Positions 54 to 19,394 of a stretch of DNA of 64,000 bases are shown piece after piece; the stretch's first letter is position 1, and every line of letters starts with the position of its first letter. Location: contig JAHBTR010000005.1 of NCBI GenBank assembly GCA_019638475.1, forward strand, positions 62,001-126,000. The letters run 5' to 3'. A program made the position numbers and the translations under genes. The stretch comes from Chitinophagaceae bacterium (GTDB lineage: Bacteria > Bacteroidota > Bacteroidia > Chitinophagales > Chitinophagaceae). Below the pieces are notes generated by a model. That model worked only from the letters and a program-made list of their open reading frames with translations. It made no database searches and was not told the DNA's origin.

Positions 54-569
54 ATGCAAAACGTAACGACAGACAACAGAAAATGGTATGTATTGACAAC
101 CAAGCCGAAAGCTGAAAAACAAGTAAGCAAACGGTTGACAGAAAACCGTGTTGAAAATTTTCTGCCGTTACAGCGACAGTTGAGAACTTGGCACGACCGA
201 AAAAAATGGATAGAAACACCACTTTTCAACTCATACATTTTTGTAAAGACAGAAGACAAATTACGAAGTAAAGTTTTTGAAGTTGGCGGACTTATAAAAT
301 ACGTTTCCATTGGCGGACAAATCTGTATTTTGACAGAACAAGAAGTAGAGCGGGTAAGACGGCTTTGCAGTTACAGCGAACCCGTAACAGTTGGACACGA
401 AAACTTTGAAAGAGGAGAAGAAGTAGAAATTTTGGAAGGACATTTTGTTGGGTTTTGTGGACAACTTCTCGAAAACGGAGACAAACATAAATTGAAAATT
501 TCCATTGCAGGACTTGGTTGTTTTGCAACGGTGTTTATAGACAAAAATATTGTGCGGAAAATTTTGTAA
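54..569 (+). CDS. UpxY/NusG-family transcription antiterminator
   Basis: 171 aa. An N-terminal NGN domain (about residues 9-105) starts with the family pattern W-Y-V-L-x-T-K-P-K-A-E-K and contains PLFNSYIFVK. A C-terminal KOW-like domain (about 115-168) starts near RGEEVEILEGHF. In Bacteroidota, UpxY proteins ride on RNA polymerase and promote read-through of long capsule or polysaccharide operons. I chose ATG 54; a TTG exactly at the crossover (24) is in frame but would add residues encoded by the cassette core. Sole gene of C1, with no polysaccharide genes beside it, so its target operon would be elsewhere. The family is clear; the target is unknown. Confidence 0.85.
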   Translation: MQNVTTDNRKWYVLTTKPKAEKQVSKRLTENRVENFLPLQRQLRTWHDRKKWIETPLFNSYIFVKTEDKLRSKVFEVGGLIKYVSIGGQICILTEQEVERVRRLCSYSEPVTVGHENFERGEEVEILEGHFVGFCGQLLENGDKHKLKISIAGLGCFATVFIDKNIVRKIL

Positions 570-3311: not shown

Positions 3312-3448
3312 ACCGCTAACGAGCAGTTTGGCGTTATGGCGGGTGAACGGCTTCGATTGAACATTTGTGCAAAGTTCAACATTCGTTCTTCGATTGAACT
3401 TTTGTGCTAAAAATCCCCGCCTTCGGCAATACCCAATCCGTTGTGCGT
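3312..3448 (+). repeat. attC-like site 3 (C3/C4 boundary)
   Basis: Left core ACCGCTAAC (3312-3320) is the exact reverse complement of the C3 start GTTAGCGGT. Right core is GTTGTGCGT (3440-3448). The centre shows three tandem units: GATTGAACATTTGTGC, AGTTCAACATTCGTTC and GATTGAACTTTTGTGC. 137 bp. Confidence 0.88.
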
Positions 3449-3619
3449 CATGCTGTAATGGAATATTATCCATTGTAACAATCATTAAAAAACATTAATA
3501 ATCTTGAGGTTCAAACTACGGCGACAATGACTTATGTAAAATACATTGTTAACTTTAATGAGAGCACTCACTGCGATTTCGAAAAATCATTTTAAAACTA
3601 TCAACTAAATAGAAGGACA
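3449..3619 (+). other. C4 leader, no gene
   Basis: 171 bases with no plausible gene. Near its start is a short inverted repeat, AATGGA...TCCATT (3458-3475), a possible operator. GAAGGA about 7 bases before the ATG at 3620 could serve as ribosome binding site. The rest is A/T-rich without a clear TAnnTTTG promoter. Confidence 0.4.
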
Positions 3620-6100: not shown

Positions 6101-6236
6101 GCCACCAACAGCGGTTTAGCGTAATGGGGGCGGACATTCTTCGTATGAACATTTTTGCTAAATTTGAACTGTGTGCTTCGTATCAAGTGCAGTGCTAAAA
6201 GTCCCGCACTTCGCCAAGCCCAAAACCGTTGGCTGC
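6101..6236 (+). repeat. attC-like site 6 (C6/C7 boundary)
   Basis: Left core GCCACCAAC (6101-6109) is the exact reverse complement of the C6 start GTTGGTGGC. Right core is GTTGGCTGC (6228-6236). Arms GCGGTTTAGCGTAATGGGGG and CCGCACTTCGCCAAGCCC pair. The centre contains TAAATTTG at 6159-6166. Confidence 0.88.
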
Positions 6237-6277
6237 CATTCTTCGGACAGCCGTTCACAATCTAAAACGGTTAAACA

Positions 6278-7613: not shown

Positions 7614-7750
7614 GCAGCCAACAAACAGTTTTGCAATAGTGCGGCTGACGGTCATAGGCTCAACATTTGTGCTACTTTGAACTTTTATGCTAACTTCGGC
7701 TGACGAGCTTCGATTGCCGCACCATCGCAAAGCTGCCGGACGTTAGGCAC
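7614..7750 (+). repeat. attC-like site 7 (C7/C8 boundary)
   Basis: Left core GCAGCCAAC (7614-7622) is the exact reverse complement of the C7 start GTTGGCTGC. Right core is GTTAGGCAC (7742-7750). Arms CAGTTTTGCAATAGTGCGGC and GCCGCACCATCGCAAAGCTG pair well. 137 bp. Confidence 0.88.
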
Positions 7751-8004
7751 AAGCGTAGGACGACCGAACTACACAAACAAAGCAACGGACAACATTGACA
7801 GGTGGACAACATACAGACCATATTGCGACAGGACAACGAGTAAGCCGACACGCAATGCCTGACCCTATGTATTTTTTATTTTCCCCACCGCACATTTTTA
7901 TTCAATTTTGCCGACACACAGCAAGCACACCCAAGCCCACCCGCCACCCGACATTTCTAATTTTTGGCAATTTATCAACATTGCTGCCGTTTCATAGATT
8001 TTTG
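7751..8004 (+). other. C8 leader with shared blocks, no gene
   Basis: No gene is seen. It holds GTAGGACGAC (7755-7764), found at the same distance from the crossover in C3 and (as GTAGGACACC) C11, and a block starting CCAAGCCCACCC (7931-7953) shared with the leaders of C11 and C12. The strand is rich in A, C and GACA and poor in T. Confidence 0.6.
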
Positions 8005-8012
8005 TATCTTTG
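8005..8012 (+). promoter_or_regulatory. Bacteroidota -7 box of the AbiE/helicase operon
   Basis: TATCTTTG fits TAnnTTTG. A TTG-like element (ATTG, 7979-7982) lies about 22 bases upstream. Transcription would start near 8018, only about 10 bases before the proposed start of the antitoxin gene. Confidence 0.55.
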
Positions 8013-8027
8013 CTAAAATTTTAAGAA

Positions 8028-8774
8028 ATCATCGCAACAGACAAACTACATACCGACAAATTAAAACGCCATTTCAAGAACAAATCTGTTTTTGAAACAC
8101 AAGACATTGTTGCGTTCTACGAACAAATCGAAAAGGGCATCAAACCAACAACGGTAAATTGGCGTGTGTACACTTTGGTTCAAGAGGGCGTTTTGCAACG
8201 CATAGGCAGAGGAAAATTTACACTTGGCGAAGGCAAAAACTATGTTCCCGAAATTTCATCGGCAACAAAAACTGTTTTCAAGAAATTAAAAGCAGAATTT
8301 CCCTATGCCAATTTGTGCGTTTGGAACACTTCCGTTTTAAACGAATTTATGCAGCACCAACCTAACCGATTTTTTGTGTTAGTGGAAACAGACAAAGAAA
8401 CAACCAATTCTGTTTTTTACTTTTTGCGTGAAATAAAAAAATCGGTTTTTATTGAACCGACAAAAGATATTTTGGAAAAATATGTGCTAAAAGAAAATGA
8501 AGTGTTTATAGTAAAACCTCTTATTTCGGAAGCACCAACGCAAAACATAAACGGAGTTGAAACGGCAACCATAGAAAAAATGTTAGTGGATATTTTTTGC
8601 GATGACGTAATTTTTTCGGCTCAACAAGGTGCTGAAATGCGCACTATTTTCATAGAGACATTTAGAAAATACACCATTAACCAAAGCAAAATGCTTCGCT
8701 ATGCCGACAGACGAAGAAAAAAAGAAGAACTAAACCAATTTGTAAAAACAATTTCAAATTTATGGCAGCAATAA
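8028..8774 (+). CDS. AbiEi-like antitoxin (DUF6577 type), non-canonical start
   Basis: About 248 aa. The open frame runs from 8025 after a stop at 8022 and contains no ATG, GTG or TTG until GTG 8166, yet the translated N-terminus (KLHTDKLKRHFKNKSVF, DIVAFYEQI, TTVNWRVYTLVQEG, RIGRGKFTLGEG) is the expected winged-helix of AbiEi antitoxins. Start must be ATC 8028 or 8031, or a mutated ATG. The antitoxin represses its operon and neutralises AbiEii in type IV toxin-antitoxin systems. It is 22 bases ahead of the toxin gene in C8. The family is clear; the start is the uncertain part. Confidence 0.75.
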   Translation: MIATDKLHTDKLKRHFKNKSVFETQDIVAFYEQIEKGIKPTTVNWRVYTLVQEGVLQRIGRGKFTLGEGKNYVPEISSATKTVFKKLKAEFPYANLCVWNTSVLNEFMQHQPNRFFVLVETDKETTNSVFYFLREIKKSVFIEPTKDILEKYVLKENEVFIVKPLISEAPTQNINGVETATIEKMLVDIFCDDVIFSAQQGAEMRTIFIETFRKYTINQSKMLRYADRRRKKEELNQFVKTISNLWQQ

Positions 8775-8796
8775 AAATTAACTGCCGTTTTATAGA

Positions 8797-9864
8797 ATGA
8801 TAAATAGAACCGAAATATCAAGCGAGTGGCTTAATCAAGTATCAAAGCAACACCGAAATGCGGATAAAATTCTTGTAGAGAAAGTTATCCGTGCCTTGTT
8901 GCTGTTGGAAGGTTTGGCAAAGCAAAACCTTTCCTTTGTTTTCAAAGGCGGCACAGCGTTGATGTTACATTTCAATTCAACCAAACGACTTTCAATAGAC
9001 ATTGACATTATTCTGCCGAATGAAATCAAAGACTTGGAAAGTATTTTAGATGCAATCGTAAAAGAACAAGGATTTTTGAGAAAAGAACTGCAACACCGAA
9101 GCACAAACTCAAAAATCAAAAAAGAGCATTACAAGTTTTTCTACACTCCTCTGCACAAAACCAACAAAGATGAAGAATATGTTTTGTTGGATATTCTTTT
9201 TGAAGAAGTGAATTACGCCAACTTAATTTCCTTGCCAATCCATTCTGATTTTGTTCCGCAATCGGGCAAACCGCTCACCGTAAACGTGCCGAGCTTGGAA
9301 GATATTTTGGGCGACAAACTCACTGCGTTTGCACCCAACACCACAGGCATTCCCTACTTCAAAAAAGACGACAGTATGAGTATGGAAATCATCAAACAAC
9401 TTTACGACATCGGAAATTTGTTTGATGCAGTAAACGATATTGAAACTATTAAAACTACGTTTTATCGTTTTGCTAAAACCGAAATTGCTTATCGCAATTC
9501 CGCAGGAATTTCTGAAAGTGATGTATTGGAAGATATTTACGAAACGGCTCTTTGCATTGTAAGCAGAGGAACAGACGGAAAAGGCAATTTTGATGAACTG
9601 TTAAACGGTATTTTACGAATGAAAGGTTTTATATTTTCAGAAACATATCACATTGAAAAAGCAATCACCCACGCTTCAAAGGCGGCTTACCTTTCGGCTT
9701 TGATACAACACAATGCAAAAACGATTGATAAGTTTGAAAATCCGCTTCAATTAAAAGATTGGCAGATTGGCGAGCCGCTCAACAACAAGTTGAACAAGCT
9801 GAAAAAATCCAATCCCGAAGCGTTTTTTTATTGGTATAAGATTTATGAACTGAAAAGCAAATAA
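8797..9864 (+). CDS. AbiEii-like nucleotidyltransferase toxin
   Basis: 355 aa. The nucleotidyltransferase signature FVFKGGTALMLHF followed by RLSIDIDIILP gives the Gly-Gly-Ser/Thr motif and the two metal-binding Asp residues (about 70 and 72). A second block LEDILGDKLTAFAP is also typical of AbiEii. Such toxins transfer nucleotides, e.g. to tRNA, and stop growth when phage infection upsets the antitoxin. It follows the AbiEi-like gene by 22 bases and precedes the giant helicase by 23, so three genes form one operon within C8. Confidence 0.85.
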   Translation: MINRTEISSEWLNQVSKQHRNADKILVEKVIRALLLLEGLAKQNLSFVFKGGTALMLHFNSTKRLSIDIDIILPNEIKDLESILDAIVKEQGFLRKELQHRSTNSKIKKEHYKFFYTPLHKTNKDEEYVLLDILFEEVNYANLISLPIHSDFVPQSGKPLTVNVPSLEDILGDKLTAFAPNTTGIPYFKKDDSMSMEIIKQLYDIGNLFDAVNDIETIKTTFYRFAKTEIAYRNSAGISESDVLEDIYETALCIVSRGTDGKGNFDELLNGILRMKGFIFSETYHIEKAITHASKAAYLSALIQHNAKTIDKFENPLQLKDWQIGEPLNNKLNKLKKSNPEAFFYWYKIYELKSK

Positions 9865-9887: not shown

Positions 9888-12800
9888 ATGAACTCTATTG
9901 CATTCATTGATACGGAGGTTGAACCTAAGAGCGGAAAAGTTCTTGACATTGGAAGTGTCAAGGACAACGGGGCTTCTTTCCATAAAACTTCGGTAGCCGA
10001 CTTTATACAGTTTATCAATGGAACTCAATTCGTCTGCGGACACAACATTTTCAATCACGACATCAAATACATTGGCAAAGCTCTCAATGATGCAGGAATA
10101 AGTTCGGCAAACATCATTGACACCTTGTTTCTTTCGCCTTTGCTTTTCCCGACAAAGCCGTATCATAAACTACTCAAAGACGACAAACTTCAATCGGAAG
10201 ACACAAACAATCCGTTGAACGATTCTATCAAAGCAAAAGATTTGTTGAATGACGAAATTGCTACTTTCAAGCAGACAGACGACACGCTCAAACAAATTTT
10301 TTATTTGCTGTTATACGACAAAAAAGAGTTCCACGCATTTTTTCGTTACATCAGATACAATAGTACAAGCACAGACATTGAAAAACTAATTCGTGAAAAA
10401 TTCAAAAACGAACTTTGCGAACAAGTTGATTTAGCGAAAATTATTTCAGAAAAACCGATTGAACTTGCTTACTGTTTATCGCTGATAAATTCTTTTATTC
10501 AATACAAAAAAATCCATTCCATAACGCCACCATGGGTTTTAAAAAATTATCCCGAAGTTGAACGGATAATGTTTCGTTTACGAAACAAACCTTGTGTAAG
10601 CGGTTGTGAGTATTGCAACAGCGTTTTAGACGCACACAAAGGACTGAAACGATTTTTCGGTTTTGATTCCTACAGAAGTTACGGTGGCGAACCGTTGCAA
10701 GAAAAAGCGGTTAAAGCTGCGATTGACAATAAATCTATACTTGCTGTTTTTCCGACAGGTGGCGGAAAGTCAATCACATTTCAAGTTCCCGCTTTGATGA
10801 GCGGAGAAACTTCAAAAGGTTTAACCGTTGTGATTTCGCCTTTGCAATCGCTAATGAAAGACCAAGTTGACAACCTTGAAAAAGTTGGAATTACTGATGC
10901 GGTTACAATAAACGGTTTACTTGACCCAATTGAAAGAGCAAAGTCTTTTGAAAGAATTGAAGAAGGTTCGGCTTCTATTCTTTACATATCGCCAGAATCG
11001 CTACGCTCAAAAACGATTGAACGTTTAGTTTTGGGTAGAAAAGTTGCACGTTTTGTTATTGATGAAGCTCACTGTTTTTCTTCGTGGGGACAAGATTTTA
11101 GAGTTGATTATTTATACATCGGAGATTTCATCAAAACGATTCAAGAAAAGAAAAATCTTGAAGATGGTATTCCTGTTTCGTGTTTCACTGCAACAGCTAA
11201 ACAAAAAGTAATTGAAGACATACGAGATTATTTCAGAGAAAAACTTTCGCTTAATCTTGAATTGTTTACTTCAACAGCATCACGAACAAATCTTAAATAC
11301 AAAATTTTTGAAAAAGGAGACGAAGAAGAAAAATACCAAACAGCGAGAGACTTAATTGAAGAAAAAAATTGCCCGACTATCATTTATGTTTCACGAACAC
11401 GAAAAGCCTACACGCTTGCTGAACGCTTGAAAGAAGACGGTTTTAGTGCAAAACCGTATCACGGTAAAATGGATAAGCAGGAAAAATCTGAAAATCAAGA
11501 TTCGTTTATCAATGGAGAAACTCAAATAATGGTGGCTACTTCTGCTTTTGGAATGGGCGTTGACAAAAAAGACGTTGGAATGGTCATTCACTATGAAATT
11601 TCCGATTCACTTGAAAACTATATTCAGGAAGCAGGACGAGCAGGACGAGACGAAAATATTACAGCGGATTGTTTTGTGCTGTTTAACGAAGAAGATTTAA
11701 GCAAACATTTTATTCTTTTAAATCAAACCAAGCTTTCCATTAAAGAAATTCAGCAAGTTTGGAAAGCCATAAAAGATATTACAAGATTCCGTTCATCGGT
11801 TTCAAATTCCGCTTTGGAAATTGCACGAAAAGCAGGTTGGGATGACAATGTTGTTGAAATTGAAACAAGAGTTACAACAGCCATTGCAGCGTTGGAAGAT
11901 GCAGGATATTTGAAACGAGGACAAAATATGCCACGAGTTTTTGCCAATAGTATTCTTGCAAAAAATGCACAAGAAGCCATTGACAAAATCAATGCTTCGG
12001 AAAAATTTGTTGGAAACCAAAAAGAAAAAGGTGTAAGAATTATCAAGAAACTTTTTTCAAGCAAAAGCAGAAAGCAATCAAGCGATGAAGTTGCAGAATC
12101 AAGAATTGATTACATCAGCGACCATTTAGGAATTGTAAAAGAAGAAGTGATAAACATTGTCAATCTTTTGCGTGAAGAAAAGATTTTAGCCGATGCAAAA
12201 GATTTAACCGCTTTTATCAAAAAAGGAGAAAACAAAAATCGTTCGTTCAACATCGTTGACACATTCAGTAAAATTGAAAACTTTTTGCTTCCAATTGTTG
12301 AAGAACAAGAAAAAGTATTTCACATTAAAGAACTGAACGAACAAGCCGAAGAAAAAGGACTTGACGACATCAGCACCAATAAGATTAAAACCATTTTCAA
12401 TTTTTGGGCAATCAAAAATTGGGTTAAGCGACAACGTTTAGAATCAAAAAATCACGTTGCTGTTCTTTCATTACACCCGAAAGAATTATTGAAAGACAAA
12501 TTAGAGAAACGACACGCTTTGGCAAAATTTATTGTTGAGTTTCTCTATGAAAAAAGTAATGTGAACGCTTCGGAAAAAGATTCTACAAAAGAAGAAGTGC
12601 TCGTTGAATTTTCAGTTCAAGAATTAAAAACCGCTTACGAGAAAAGTTCAAGTTTGTTTAAAGTGGACATCAACCTTGACGATATTGAAGATACGTTATT
12701 TTACTTGTCAAGAATTGAAGCGATAAAGATTGAAGGCGGTTTTCTTGTTGTGTATAATCGTTTGACCATTGAACGAACTGAACAAGACAACAAAAAACGT

Positions 12801-14708
12801 TATACAAAAGACGATTATCAAAAACTGCATCAGTTTTACGAAAACAAAGTTCAGCAAATTCACATCGTTGGCGAATACGCCAAAAAAATGATTGAGGACT
12901 ACAAAAGTGCTTTGCAGTTTGTAGAAGATTATTTTCATTTAAATTATTCATCGTTTTTACACAGATATTTTCCGGGCAGTCGTCAAAATGAAATCAAACG
13001 AAACATTACGCCAGCTAAATTCAGACAACTTTTCGGAGAACTTTCGCCAACACAATTAAAAATCATAAACGACAACGAAACGAAACATATTGTTGTTGCT
13101 GCGGGTCCGGGAAGCGGAAAAACAAGAGTTTTAGTTCACAAATTGGCTTCATTACTTTTAATGGAAGATGTGAAACACGAACAGTTGCTTATGATTACGT
13201 TTTCAAGAGCAGCAGCAACCGAATTTAAAAAGCGTTTATTAAAACTTATCGGAAACGCAGCAAACTTTATTGAAATAAAAACTTTCCATTCTTACTGTTT
13301 TGATTTGTTGGGCAAAGTCGGCAGTTTGGAAAAATCAGACGAAATTCTAAAAAAGACAATTCAGAAAATAAAGAATAACGAAGTTGAAGCAAGCCGAATA
13401 ACAAAAACCGTTTTGGTAATTGACGAAGCACAAGATATGGACAAAGACGAGTTCGATTTGATAAGTGCGTTAATGGAACAAAATGAAGAAATGCGAGTAA
13501 TTGCCGTTGGCGATGACGACCAAAATATTTATGAATTTAGAGGCGCAAGTTCAAAACATCTTGAACAATTCATTCAGGCGAACAATGCAGTCAAACACGA
13601 ATTAGTAGAGAATTACAGAAGCAAAATCAATCTTGTTGATTTTTCAAATCAATTTGTAAAACGGATTTCTTACCGATTAAAACAAACGCCAATTATTGCA
13701 AAGCAAAATGACAACGGAAAAATAAAAATCGTGCGTTATCAAACTGGAAACCTGATCAATCCACTTGTGCAAGACATTCTCACAACAGGACTTTCGGGAA
13801 CAACTTGTGTATTGACAAAGACAAACGAAGAAGCATTACAAATTACAGGATTGCTTTTGAAAAATGGTATTCAAGCAAAATTAATTCAGTCCAATGACGG
13901 TTTCAGTTTATACAATCTTAATGAAGTCCGCTATTTTTTAAGCCATTTGAATTTAGCTGATGATGTTTACATAATCAACGATGATGTTTGGTTAAACGCA
14001 AAACGTGAAGTTGTAAACAAATATCGACACAGCACCAAATTGGAAATTTTAGGAAACATCATCAAAGAATTTGAAGCAAGCAATCCGAAAAAGAAATACA
14101 AATCCGACTTAGAAGTTTTCATTCGTGAATCCAAACTTGAAGATTTTTATAGCGAAAATGGCGAGGCAATTTTCGTTTCAACAATTCACAAAGCAAAAGG
14201 AAAAGAGTTCGACAATGTTTTTCTAATGCTGGACAGCTTTAATGCCGTATCAGACGAAGCAAATCGGCTGCTTTATGTGGCAATGACAAGAGCAAAAACC
14301 AACTTGACAATTCACCTAAACTCAAACTTTTTTGACAATCTCACAGCAGACAATTTAGAGCGAATTGAAAACAAAGAAACGCATTTACAACCGAACGAAT
14401 TGGCAATGCACTTGTTGTTAAAAGACGTTTGGCTTGACTATTTCATAACCCGACAAGGTTTGATTTCTCAACTAAAAAGCGGAGACAACTTAACACTAAA
14501 AGACGATGAATGTTTAGACGATAAAGGAAAATCTGTTTTAAAGTTCTCTAGGCAGTTCGTTGGACAAATTGAAAATATGAAAGCGAAAAACTATGTATTG
14601 AAAAGTGCAAAAGTGAATTTTATAGTTTATTGGAAAAAAGAAGACACAGAACAAGAAGTGAAAATTATTTTACCCGAACTTTATTTTGAAAGAAAAAATA
14701 ACGAATGA
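9888..14708 (+). CDS. Exonuclease-RecQ-UvrD fusion helicase
   Basis: 1606 aa, three enzyme modules. (1) DEDD-type 3'-5' exonuclease, residues 1-200: FIDTE at 6-10 and CGHNIFNHD near 50-58. (2) RecQ-type SF2 helicase: Walker A PTGGGKS near 290, DEAH near 391, motif VI QEAGRAGRDE near 580, then a winged-helix region. (3) UvrD-type SF1A helicase: GPGSGKTRVL near 1073, VIDEAQD near 1177, GDDDQNIYEFRG near 1206, and YVAMTRAK near 1462. A Cys cluster (PCVSGCEYC, about 240-248) precedes the RecQ part. It should unwind and degrade DNA. Sharing an operon with AbiE suggests phage defence, but this is inference. Confidence 0.9.
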   Translation: MNSIAFIDTEVEPKSGKVLDIGSVKDNGASFHKTSVADFIQFINGTQFVCGHNIFNHDIKYIGKALNDAGISSANIIDTLFLSPLLFPTKPYHKLLKDDKLQSEDTNNPLNDSIKAKDLLNDEIATFKQTDDTLKQIFYLLLYDKKEFHAFFRYIRYNSTSTDIEKLIREKFKNELCEQVDLAKIISEKPIELAYCLSLINSFIQYKKIHSITPPWVLKNYPEVERIMFRLRNKPCVSGCEYCNSVLDAHKGLKRFFGFDSYRSYGGEPLQEKAVKAAIDNKSILAVFPTGGGKSITFQVPALMSGETSKGLTVVISPLQSLMKDQVDNLEKVGITDAVTINGLLDPIERAKSFERIEEGSASILYISPESLRSKTIERLVLGRKVARFVIDEAHCFSSWGQDFRVDYLYIGDFIKTIQEKKNLEDGIPVSCFTATAKQKVIEDIRDYFREKLSLNLELFTSTASRTNLKYKIFEKGDEEEKYQTARDLIEEKNCPTIIYVSRTRKAYTLAERLKEDGFSAKPYHGKMDKQEKSENQDSFINGETQIMVATSAFGMGVDKKDVGMVIHYEISDSLENYIQEAGRAGRDENITADCFVLFNEEDLSKHFILLNQTKLSIKEIQQVWKAIKDITRFRSSVSNSALEIARKAGWDDNVVEIETRVTTAIAALEDAGYLKRGQNMPRVFANSILAKNAQEAIDKINASEKFVGNQKEKGVRIIKKLFSSKSRKQSSDEVAESRIDYISDHLGIVKEEVINIVNLLREEKILADAKDLTAFIKKGENKNRSFNIVDTFSKIENFLLPIVEEQEKVFHIKELNEQAEEKGLDDISTNKIKTIFNFWAIKNWVKRQRLESKNHVAVLSLHPKELLKDKLEKRHALAKFIVEFLYEKSNVNASEKDSTKEEVLVEFSVQELKTAYEKSSSLFKVDINLDDIEDTLFYLSRIEAIKIEGGFLVVYNRLTIERTEQDNKKRYTKDDYQKLHQFYENKVQQIHIVGEYAKKMIEDYKSALQFVEDYFHLNYSSFLHRYFPGSRQNEIKRNITPAKFRQLFGELSPTQLKIINDNETKHIVVAAGPGSGKTRVLVHKLASLLLMEDVKHEQLLMITFSRAAATEFKKRLLKLIGNAANFIEIKTFHSYCFDLLGKVGSLEKSDEILKKTIQKIKNNEVEASRITKTVLVIDEAQDMDKDEFDLISALMEQNEEMRVIAVGDDDQNIYEFRGASSKHLEQFIQANNAVKHELVENYRSKINLVDFSNQFVKRISYRLKQTPIIAKQNDNGKIKIVRYQTGNLINPLVQDILTTGLSGTTCVLTKTNEEALQITGLLLKNGIQAKLIQSNDGFSLYNLNEVRYFLSHLNLADDVYIINDDVWLNAKREVVNKYRHSTKLEILGNIIKEFEASNPKKKYKSDLEVFIRESKLEDFYSENGEAIFVSTIHKAKGKEFDNVFLMLDSFNAVSDEANRLLYVAMTRAKTNLTIHLNSNFFDNLTADNLERIENKETHLQPNELAMHLLLKDVWLDYFITRQGLISQLKSGDNLTLKDDECLDDKGKSVLKFSRQFVGQIENMKAKNYVLKSAKVNFIVYWKKEDTEQEVKIILPELYFERKNNE

Positions 14709-14937: not shown

Positions 14938-15076
14938 GTGCATAACAGCGGTTTGGTGCAAGCGGGGGGGGTTAGTGCTTCGATTGACAGTTTTTCGGTA
15001 AATTTGAACTTTCGGCTTCGTAGGAAGTTTTGTGGTAAAATCCCCCGCCTGCGCCAAGCCGCAAACCGTTGGCGGC
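14938..15076 (+). repeat. attC-like site 8 (C8/C9 boundary)
   Basis: Left core GTGCATAAC (14938-14946) matches the reverse complement of the C8 start (GTGCCTAAC) at 8 of 9 bases. Right core is GTTGGCGGC (15068-15076). Arms GCGGTTTGGTGCAAGCGGGGG and CCCCCGCCTGCGCCAAGCC pair. TAAATTTG lies in the centre at 14999-15006. 139 bp. Confidence 0.86.
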
Positions 15077-15154
15077 TATGCTAATAGACACCACGTTCCA
15101 ACAAACAGTTGACAATTTGACGACAATTTCAACTGACTTTACTAACATTTTGAG

Positions 15155-16107: not shown

Positions 16108-17037
16108 ATGAACATTGATAAATATATAAACCAAATCATTGAAGGCAACTGTGTTGAAGTAATGAAAAAATTTGATGATGAAGTTATTGATTTAACTGTT
16201 ACTTCACCACCATACGACAATCTTAGAAATTATAAAGGATTTGAATTTCCATTTGAAGATATAGCTAAAGAACTTTACAGAGTTACTAAACAAGGTGGCG
16301 TTGTTGTTTGGGTTGTTAACGATGCAACAATTGAAGGAAGTGAAACAGGAACAAGTTTTAGTCAAGCACTTTATTTCAGAGAAATTGGCTTTAATCTTCA
16401 CGACACAATGATTTTTCGCAAGACAAACCCAATTCCTCAAATTTACCGAAAACGCTACAATAATGAATTTGAATTTATGTTCGTTTTTAGCAAAGGAACA
16501 GTAAAGACACATAATCCATTAATGGTTGACTGTTTACACGCAGGTTTAGAACTTAACGGAACGACCTACAAAAACTTCTCTAAAAACGAGCAGACCAGAG
16601 AAAAAATGGCAAAACCTGTTAAGGACAAAAAAATTAAAGGCAACATTTGGGAATATGTAGTTGGCAAAAAACAAGAAGACCAAGAAGCAAAAGGACACCC
16701 AGCACCATTTCCTTGCGAACTTGTTAGAGACCACATAAAATCGTGGACAAATCAAGGCGACATAGTTTTTGACCCAATGAGTGGAAGTGGAACAGTTGCA
16801 AGAGTTGCAGCAGAAATGGGCAGACAATATATTGGCGTTGACATAAGCCAAGAATATTGTGAAATTGCAAGAAAACGAGTTAAATTAATTGAAAGTACAC
16901 CGACATTATTTATTGTAGAAGAACCCGAAATTGAGTACAACGCAACGACAGAAAAAGAAGCACAGCCACTAACAGGGGTTTTGCAAAATGGCGGGTTCAG
17001 TGCTAAATTGAACGGTAGTAATTCTATTAAAGTTTAG
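16108..17037 (+). CDS. DNA methyltransferase of the HindIII-like system, attC-encoded tail
   Basis: 309 aa, beta-type order: catalytic motif IV TSPPY (32-36) comes before the SAM motif I DPMSGSGTVA (about 222-231). It should methylate the site cut by the upstream nuclease, as an N6-adenine enzyme if that site is AAGCTT. The left core of site 9 begins at 16965 inside the gene, so the last 24 residues (from QPLTGVLQNGG to the end) are encoded by the attC-like repeat. The natural end was probably lost when the cassette formed, or the tail is dispensable. Confidence 0.9.
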   Translation: MNIDKYINQIIEGNCVEVMKKFDDEVIDLTVTSPPYDNLRNYKGFEFPFEDIAKELYRVTKQGGVVVWVVNDATIEGSETGTSFSQALYFREIGFNLHDTMIFRKTNPIPQIYRKRYNNEFEFMFVFSKGTVKTHNPLMVDCLHAGLELNGTTYKNFSKNEQTREKMAKPVKDKKIKGNIWEYVVGKKQEDQEAKGHPAPFPCELVRDHIKSWTNQGDIVFDPMSGSGTVARVAAEMGRQYIGVDISQEYCEIARKRVKLIESTPTLFIVEEPEIEYNATTEKEAQPLTGVLQNGGFSAKLNGSNSIKV

Positions 17038-17100
17038 TGCTAAATTGAACATTTGTGCCTTGAAATCCGCCACTTCGCAAAGCCCCAAAACGTTATGTGC
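16965..17100 (+). repeat. attC-like site 9 (C9/C10 boundary), overlaps a CDS
   Basis: Left core GCCACTAAC (16965-16973) matches the expected GCCGCCAAC at 7 of 9 bases, both differences being transitions. Right core is GTTATGTGC (17092-17100). Arms GGGGTTTTGCAAAATGGCGG and CCGCCACTTCGCAAAGCCCC pair. The methyltransferase stop codon lies in its centre. 136 bp. Confidence 0.86.
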
Positions 17101-19258: not shown

Positions 19259-19394
19259 GCACATAACACGGGTTTGGCGATAGTGGCAGATAACGGCTTC
19301 GATTGAACGTTTCTGCAAAGTTGAAAGTTAGTACATCTATCAAACTTTCGTGCTAAAAGTGCCACCCTCGCCAAGTGAGTCAGACGTTACAGGC
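19259..19394 (+). repeat. attC-like site 10 (C10/C11 boundary)
   Basis: Left core GCACATAAC (19259-19267) is the exact reverse complement of the C10 start GTTATGTGC. Right core is GTTACAGGC (19386-19394). The inner arm GGTTTGGCGATAGTGGC pairs with GCCACCCTCGCCAAG, but the outer right arm (GAGTCAGAC) does not match the left arm, as in site 13. Confidence 0.85.

Follow-up and report, generated by a model that had tools for sequence, protein, structure and literature searches.

Where does translation of an antitoxin gene begin when its reading frame offers no standard start codon at the 5' end? The window considered here is a stretch of 64,000 nucleotides from a Chitinophagaceae bacterium (contig JAHBTR010000005.1, positions 62,001 to 126,000). 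Inspection of its open reading frames showed the abiEi frame (8025-8774) to be open directly after a TAA at 8022-8024. A sequence-only reading had stated that this frame has no standard start before GTG 8166, and a codon scan confirmed that no in-frame ATG, GTG or TTG precedes that position. Reading onward from the transcription start predicted at 8017, the scan met no ATG, GTG or TTG in any of the frames until a TTG at 8092. The same reading had offered ATC 8028 or ATC 8031 as the start, and a fresh ATG-to-ATC mutation as another explanation.

Read from ATC 8031, the coding sequence (8031-8774, forward strand) encodes 247 amino acids plus the stop, and the proposal that it is an AbiEi-like antitoxin was borne out. 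The product matched DUF6577 (PF20217, 3.5e-78) in Pfam, AbiEi_4 being weak and below the cut-off, matched AbiEi in PADLOC (9.2e-91), and showed an AbiEi fold in the predicted protein. The AlphaFold2 model was built from a 42-sequence alignment that included five distant homologues outside the 48-sequence set described below; it consists of a winged helix and a C-terminal domain (mean pLDDT 88.8, pTM 0.82). Its best match in the PDB was the Streptococcus agalactiae AbiEi 6y8q_A (Foldseek E 9e-6). VIA-align superposed 130 residues of the C-terminal part (76..242) on 6y8q with Z 10.5 and rmsd 3.2, and the N-terminal winged helix aligned to many other winged-helix chains. A phmmer search of the PDB sequences gave no AbiEi match; two other matches were not taken as relatives, one of them (E 9.9e-11) covering 21 residues of a designed repeat protein. 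The expected N-terminal winged helix is present in the model at residues 2-65, with the ATC as residue 1 (8034-8225, forward strand; VIA-align rows over residues 1-67), and comprises helices 2-6, 8-14, 23-33 and 39-51 and strands 55-59 and 62-65. GTG 8166 is residue 46 and falls within helix 39-51, the third helix of the winged helix. As had been foreseen, a start there would delete about 46 residues including the DNA-binding part. The Pfam DUF6577 model starts at residue 43 of the frame, which may reflect truncation by gene finders.

The toxin gene abiEii follows on the forward strand (8797-9864, ATG start, 355 amino acids; Pfam AbiEii 7.6e-23, PADLOC AbiEii 7.9e-139). An open reading frame was found downstream of abiEi in 41 aligned loci; its start codon is ATG in 40 of them and GTG in 1, the rows for L002 and L022 having picked a frame other than the toxin. 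Because the downstream toxin frames start with ATG, the weak start appears peculiar to the antitoxin. An open reading frame of 1606 amino acids (9888-14708) lies 23 bp after abiEii and carries DEAD/Helicase_C and UvrD-like helicase domains, the former part being what we take to be RecQ-like; its best PADLOC labels were DpdF and PsyrT, and it possibly belongs to a defence island. A repeat search also found degenerate palindromic repeats of families D1-D5 between genes, roughly 1-7 kb apart (about 726-793, 2375-2442, 3326-3454, 6114-6242, 7620-7750, 14992-15082, 16996-17100 and 19272-19368). Two of them flank the abiE genes together with the helicase frame; the repeats look like cassette or attC-type sites.

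A scan of genome contigs for abiEi homologues gave 58 loci, which by record title belong to Bacteroidota, Ignavibacteria, Marinimicrobia and a few others. The whole-genome searches found matches in 5/196, 44/395, 9/92 and 28/395 genomes. Matches were found in 4 of 72,556 plasmid records, all under 60% identity, and among viral contigs 13 stretches fitted a pattern, none of them a relative. Forty-eight sequences from Bacteroidota, Ignavibacteria and Marinimicrobia, picked by tree position and codon alignment plus L027, L049, L050, L095 and L096, were used for comparison, together with a subset of 35 representatives under 80% identity. Outside the set were left five nested relatives whose ATG lies two codons further downstream (L023, L024, L040, L042 and L046), the near-identical L081, distant homologues, fragments and a TTC sister group. 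The homologue of Sphingobacterium lumbrici (L006) is 89% identical.

The alignment that had been suggested as a check, for ATG at this codon in homologues, gave a clear result. At the position of 8031, ATC stands in 42 of the 48 sequences, ATA in 2 (L011 and L048), ATT in 1 (L015), ATG in 2 (L087 and L027) and ACC in 1 (L038); once the five nested relatives are counted, the figure for ATC is 42/53. Among the representatives ATC is found in 30/35, and the remaining isoleucine codons of the same genes are ATT 431, ATA 238 and ATC 127 of 796 (16% ATC). The probability of at least 30 ATC among 32 isoleucine codons is about 4e-22, a value that treats the sequences as independent, which is only partly true. 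Eleven further conserved isoleucine columns were all led by ATT, with a tie of ATT and ATA in one. Counted on the tree, the third base of the 8031 codon underwent 5 changes; the median for the 242 other columns is 14, and 12 of those columns show 5 changes or fewer. A later search added six relatives of at least 48% identity, with ATC in L103, L104, L106, L111 and L107 and ACC in L105; in the printed start regions L107 equals L050 and L105 equals L038, so that the clearly new relatives have ATC in 4 of 4. Both ACC sequences (L038 and L105) have a TTG two codons upstream, and L108, at 44% identity, has ATG at this position.

The relatives outside the set show what else can occur here. The nested group with its later ATG implies that AUC is not indispensable. 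Four sister sequences (L064, L075, L078 and L083) have TTC at the same place with TCGC kept, and in each of them a further weak candidate (GTG, ATT, ATC or CTG) lies a few codons before it. Both groups fit an exchangeable start codon. Upstream of the TTC, the sister genes offer only weak or promoter-embedded start candidates. The family search that gave these sisters also gave L095 and L096, which have ATC. In the distant homologues L055 and L053 (Mucilaginibacter and Nafulsella) an in-frame ATC was seen near the expected start, with no ATG there.

Of the two ATC codons proposed, 8031 stood and 8028 did not. In L019, L022 and L029 an in-frame stop lies two codons before the ATC (stop-NNN-ATC), which places the start at 8031 and not at 8028; the preceding codon is also not conserved. 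Pairwise differences among the representatives at codon positions 1/2/3 were 0.40/0.24/0.48 within codons 2-12 and 0.37/0.24/0.59 within codons 46-120, against 0.58/0.69/0.68 in the four triplets upstream of the ATC. Coding constraint thus starts at the ATC, since the pattern of second below first below third is present from codon 2 and absent upstream. Counted in the alignment, 29 of the 42 ATC genes lack an in-frame ATG, GTG or TTG between the upstream stop and codon 12. An ATG in any frame is missing from -12 to +42 in 42/48 sequences, compared with about half of downstream windows, which fits the under-representation of AUG near starts reported for Bacteroidetes in the accessible part of PMC6847099. 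ATG, GTG and TTG taken together, in any frame, are reduced near the start and not absent (zero in 13/48 versus 11% of downstream windows).

A -7 promoter element TATCTTTG lies at 8005-8012 on the forward strand and agrees with the Bacteroidota consensus TAnnTTTG, which is perfect in 41/48 aligned homologues; in 41/48 the best -7 box also sits 17-20 nt before the ATC codon. The Bacteroidota box is placed at -12 to -5 relative to the transcription start in the available text of PMC9723704, and taking 8005-8012 as -12 to -5 predicts a transcription start at 8017. The leader predicted from the box would be 14 nt long (8017-8030, forward strand), so the start codon would indeed lie shortly after the transcription start, at 14 nt by our recomputation instead of the approximately 10 bases first estimated. 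No Shine-Dalgarno sequence was seen in the abiEi leader, and 8017-8080 is predicted to be unstructured (RNA fold MFE 0). A is dominant at -3 (29 of 42 sequences counted) and at -13 (37/42), which resembles the favourable start context of Flavobacterium johnsoniae, given as -3, -6 and -11 to -15 in the accessible sections of PMC7366714. The ATC (8031-8033, forward strand) is a codon kept across species at the place where translation appears to begin, and on the comparative evidence AUC 8031 is very probably the true and conserved start of abiEi.

Four other explanations were weighed. AUC could be the real start and still be neutral, kept by drift because it is good enough for ribosomes that do not use Shine-Dalgarno pairing. 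The use of ATG in related lineages (the five nested relatives and L108) speaks for this, but drift has led to ATG in only 2/48, of which the L027 gene contains an in-frame stop, and mutation should yield ATT and ATA freely, yet these occur in only 3/48. We regard neutrality as distinctly unlikely. Probably the weak start has been maintained as a means of control and is neither a mutation nor a sequencing error.

The ATCGCA could instead be kept as a DNA or RNA signal (an operator, a downstream promoter element or a protein-binding site), with translation starting elsewhere nearby. The whole hexamer is well conserved (2.0, 1.84, 1.56, 1.47, 1.12 and 1.45 bits) and the TTC sisters retain TCGC, so part of the codon conservation could be due to a nucleic-acid signal. 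Against this, the mRNA of the window offers no other standard start before 8092, and the ATC persists when GCA becomes GTA, GAA, AGA, GGA, ATA or ACA. Where the codon differs within the 48 aligned sequences it is ATA, ATT or ATG, and in one case ACC; CTC, GTC and AAC do not occur. An operator half-site at the start codon was rejected because the operator matrix has no match there above the locus background in most loci. Such a signal as the whole explanation seems very unlikely to us.

A longer protein from an upstream start, in which the ATC would be a conserved isoleucine, is hardly credible: in-frame ATG, GTG or TTG codons do occur upstream in 15/48, but these codons fall within the promoter, several of them in the untranscribed -7 box, in-frame stops lie 2-5 codons upstream in many homologues as in the window (TAA 8022-8024), the coding signature is absent upstream of the ATC, and about 84% of isoleucines would be expected as ATT or ATA. 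Almost no credence is left for a fresh ATG-to-ATC mutation, a sequencing error or a start at GTG 8166, for which nothing speaks beyond the absence of ATG, since the 42 of 48 sequences with ATC come from separately assembled genomes and GTG 8166 lies inside the winged helix and is GTG in only some homologues.

Pairs of inverted half-sites were scored with a matrix at a fixed spacing of 25 bp, chosen after an earlier scan had shown that spacing. The first pair, O1, lies over the promoter, with a left half-site upstream of abiEi that is a weak match (7956-7973, reverse strand) and, 25 bp from it, a right half-site TTGCTGCCGTTTCATAGA (7981-7998, forward strand) between the -33 and -7 elements that includes the -33 TTG; it was among the two best pairs of its locus in 48/48 sequences. 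The second pair, O2, has its left half-site within the last abiEi codons (8754-8771, reverse strand) and its right half-site ending one base before the abiEii ATG (8779-8796, forward strand). A pair in the corresponding position, where abiEi ends ahead of the toxin gene, was found in 35/47 homologue loci. The 25-bp-spaced inverted repeat is presumably the AbiEi operator; the accessible part of PMC7319586 describes binding of AbiEi and of Mycobacterium tuberculosis Rv2827c to inverted repeats at promoters. O2 (8754-8796) could act as a transcription roadblock or as an RNA hairpin. When its RNA was folded, L017 and L018 gave a hairpin-like form (z about -2.5), and in the window the fold did not go beyond shuffled sequences (z -0.40).

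Our conclusion is that a type IV antitoxin and autorepressor has AUC as its conserved and inefficient start codon, where the low initiation and the dependence on IF3 are drawn by analogy. The codon would have become fixed in this AbiEi subfamily and then been kept by selection. The normal initiator tRNA would read AUC 8031 on a leader that is short (about 14 nt), unstructured and lacking a Shine-Dalgarno sequence; initiation would be inefficient as IF3 discriminates against AUC, and little AbiEi would be made per mRNA. The expected lowering rests on the repression of non-canonical starts by IF3 (PMC5472188, accessible part) and on reporters with AUU and AUA starts in Staphylococcus aureus, which in poor medium reached about 10% of the AUG level (PMC13009471, accessible part). 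Repression of the abiEi promoter by AbiEi itself presumably acts through O1, so that with a weak start the repressor level would be low and more mRNA would accumulate. With more mRNA, O2 would become necessary to restrain the toxin, and the ATG-started toxin may be held down separately, by AbiEi acting as a roadblock at O2 or through coupling to the translation of abiEi. From this separate control at O1 and O2 we propose, in line with the sequence-only reading, that the weak AUC start tunes the antitoxin:toxin ratio, a role for which we see an even chance; it is plausible and fits the precedents. That the AUC serves as a sensor of initiation fidelity is unlikely. In that case a rise in IF3 activity, or a disturbance of initiation by a phage or stress, would make AUC initiation on abiEi fail first while the ATG-started AbiEii would still be made, and the toxin would be freed.

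Several known systems resemble the proposed one in part. According to the available text of PMC5472188, the sigR-rsrA pair of Streptomyces has a noncanonical GTC start that is repressed by IF3, and shares with abiEi that the first gene of a cotranscribed regulator pair carries a conserved start ending in C, whose weakness sets, or in abiEi would set, the product ratio. It differs in that the weak start is GUC and lies on the sigma factor, the active partner, whereas in abiEi it is AUC and lies on the antitoxin and repressor, and the role of IF3 is by analogy. The same source gives ATT in Escherichia coli and ATC in Streptomyces as the start of infC, so that AUC as a start codon, within a conserved AUH, already has precedent; infC is autoregulated by its own product IF3, and the infC of the window's own genome, checked for AUU or AUC, has an ATG near its start instead. 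In the accessible part of PMC13009471, Staphylococcus ccpN (AUA) and cvfC1 (AUU) likewise have conserved non-canonical starts, and ccpN encodes a transcriptional repressor, as abiEi presumably does; these genes have extended Shine-Dalgarno pairing and are not antitoxins, and abiEi has no visible Shine-Dalgarno sequence.

The locus has the marks of an AbiE type IV toxin-antitoxin system: an antitoxin modelled with a winged helix and C-terminal domain, AbiEii downstream, and promoter inverted repeats to which binding is presumed. In this it is like the S. agalactiae AbiEi and M. tuberculosis Rv2827c systems (PMC7319586, accessible part), in which a nucleotidyltransferase toxin also follows a winged-helix antitoxin and the promoters have inverted repeats; it differs in its subfamily, DUF6577, in half-sites 25 bp apart and in a second operator before the toxin. 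The accessible part of that source makes no mention of an AUC start for either antitoxin. Non-canonical starts are mentioned for type I toxins in the available text of PMC8167048, and an antitoxin with a conserved AUC start was not found in the open-access papers searched. Gene finders limited to ATG, GTG and TTG will truncate DUF6577 antitoxins. The bacteria concerned initiate without Shine-Dalgarno pairing. With so weak a start codon conserved in an antitoxin across a deep tree, control of translation initiation would join the means by which toxin-antitoxin systems are tuned.
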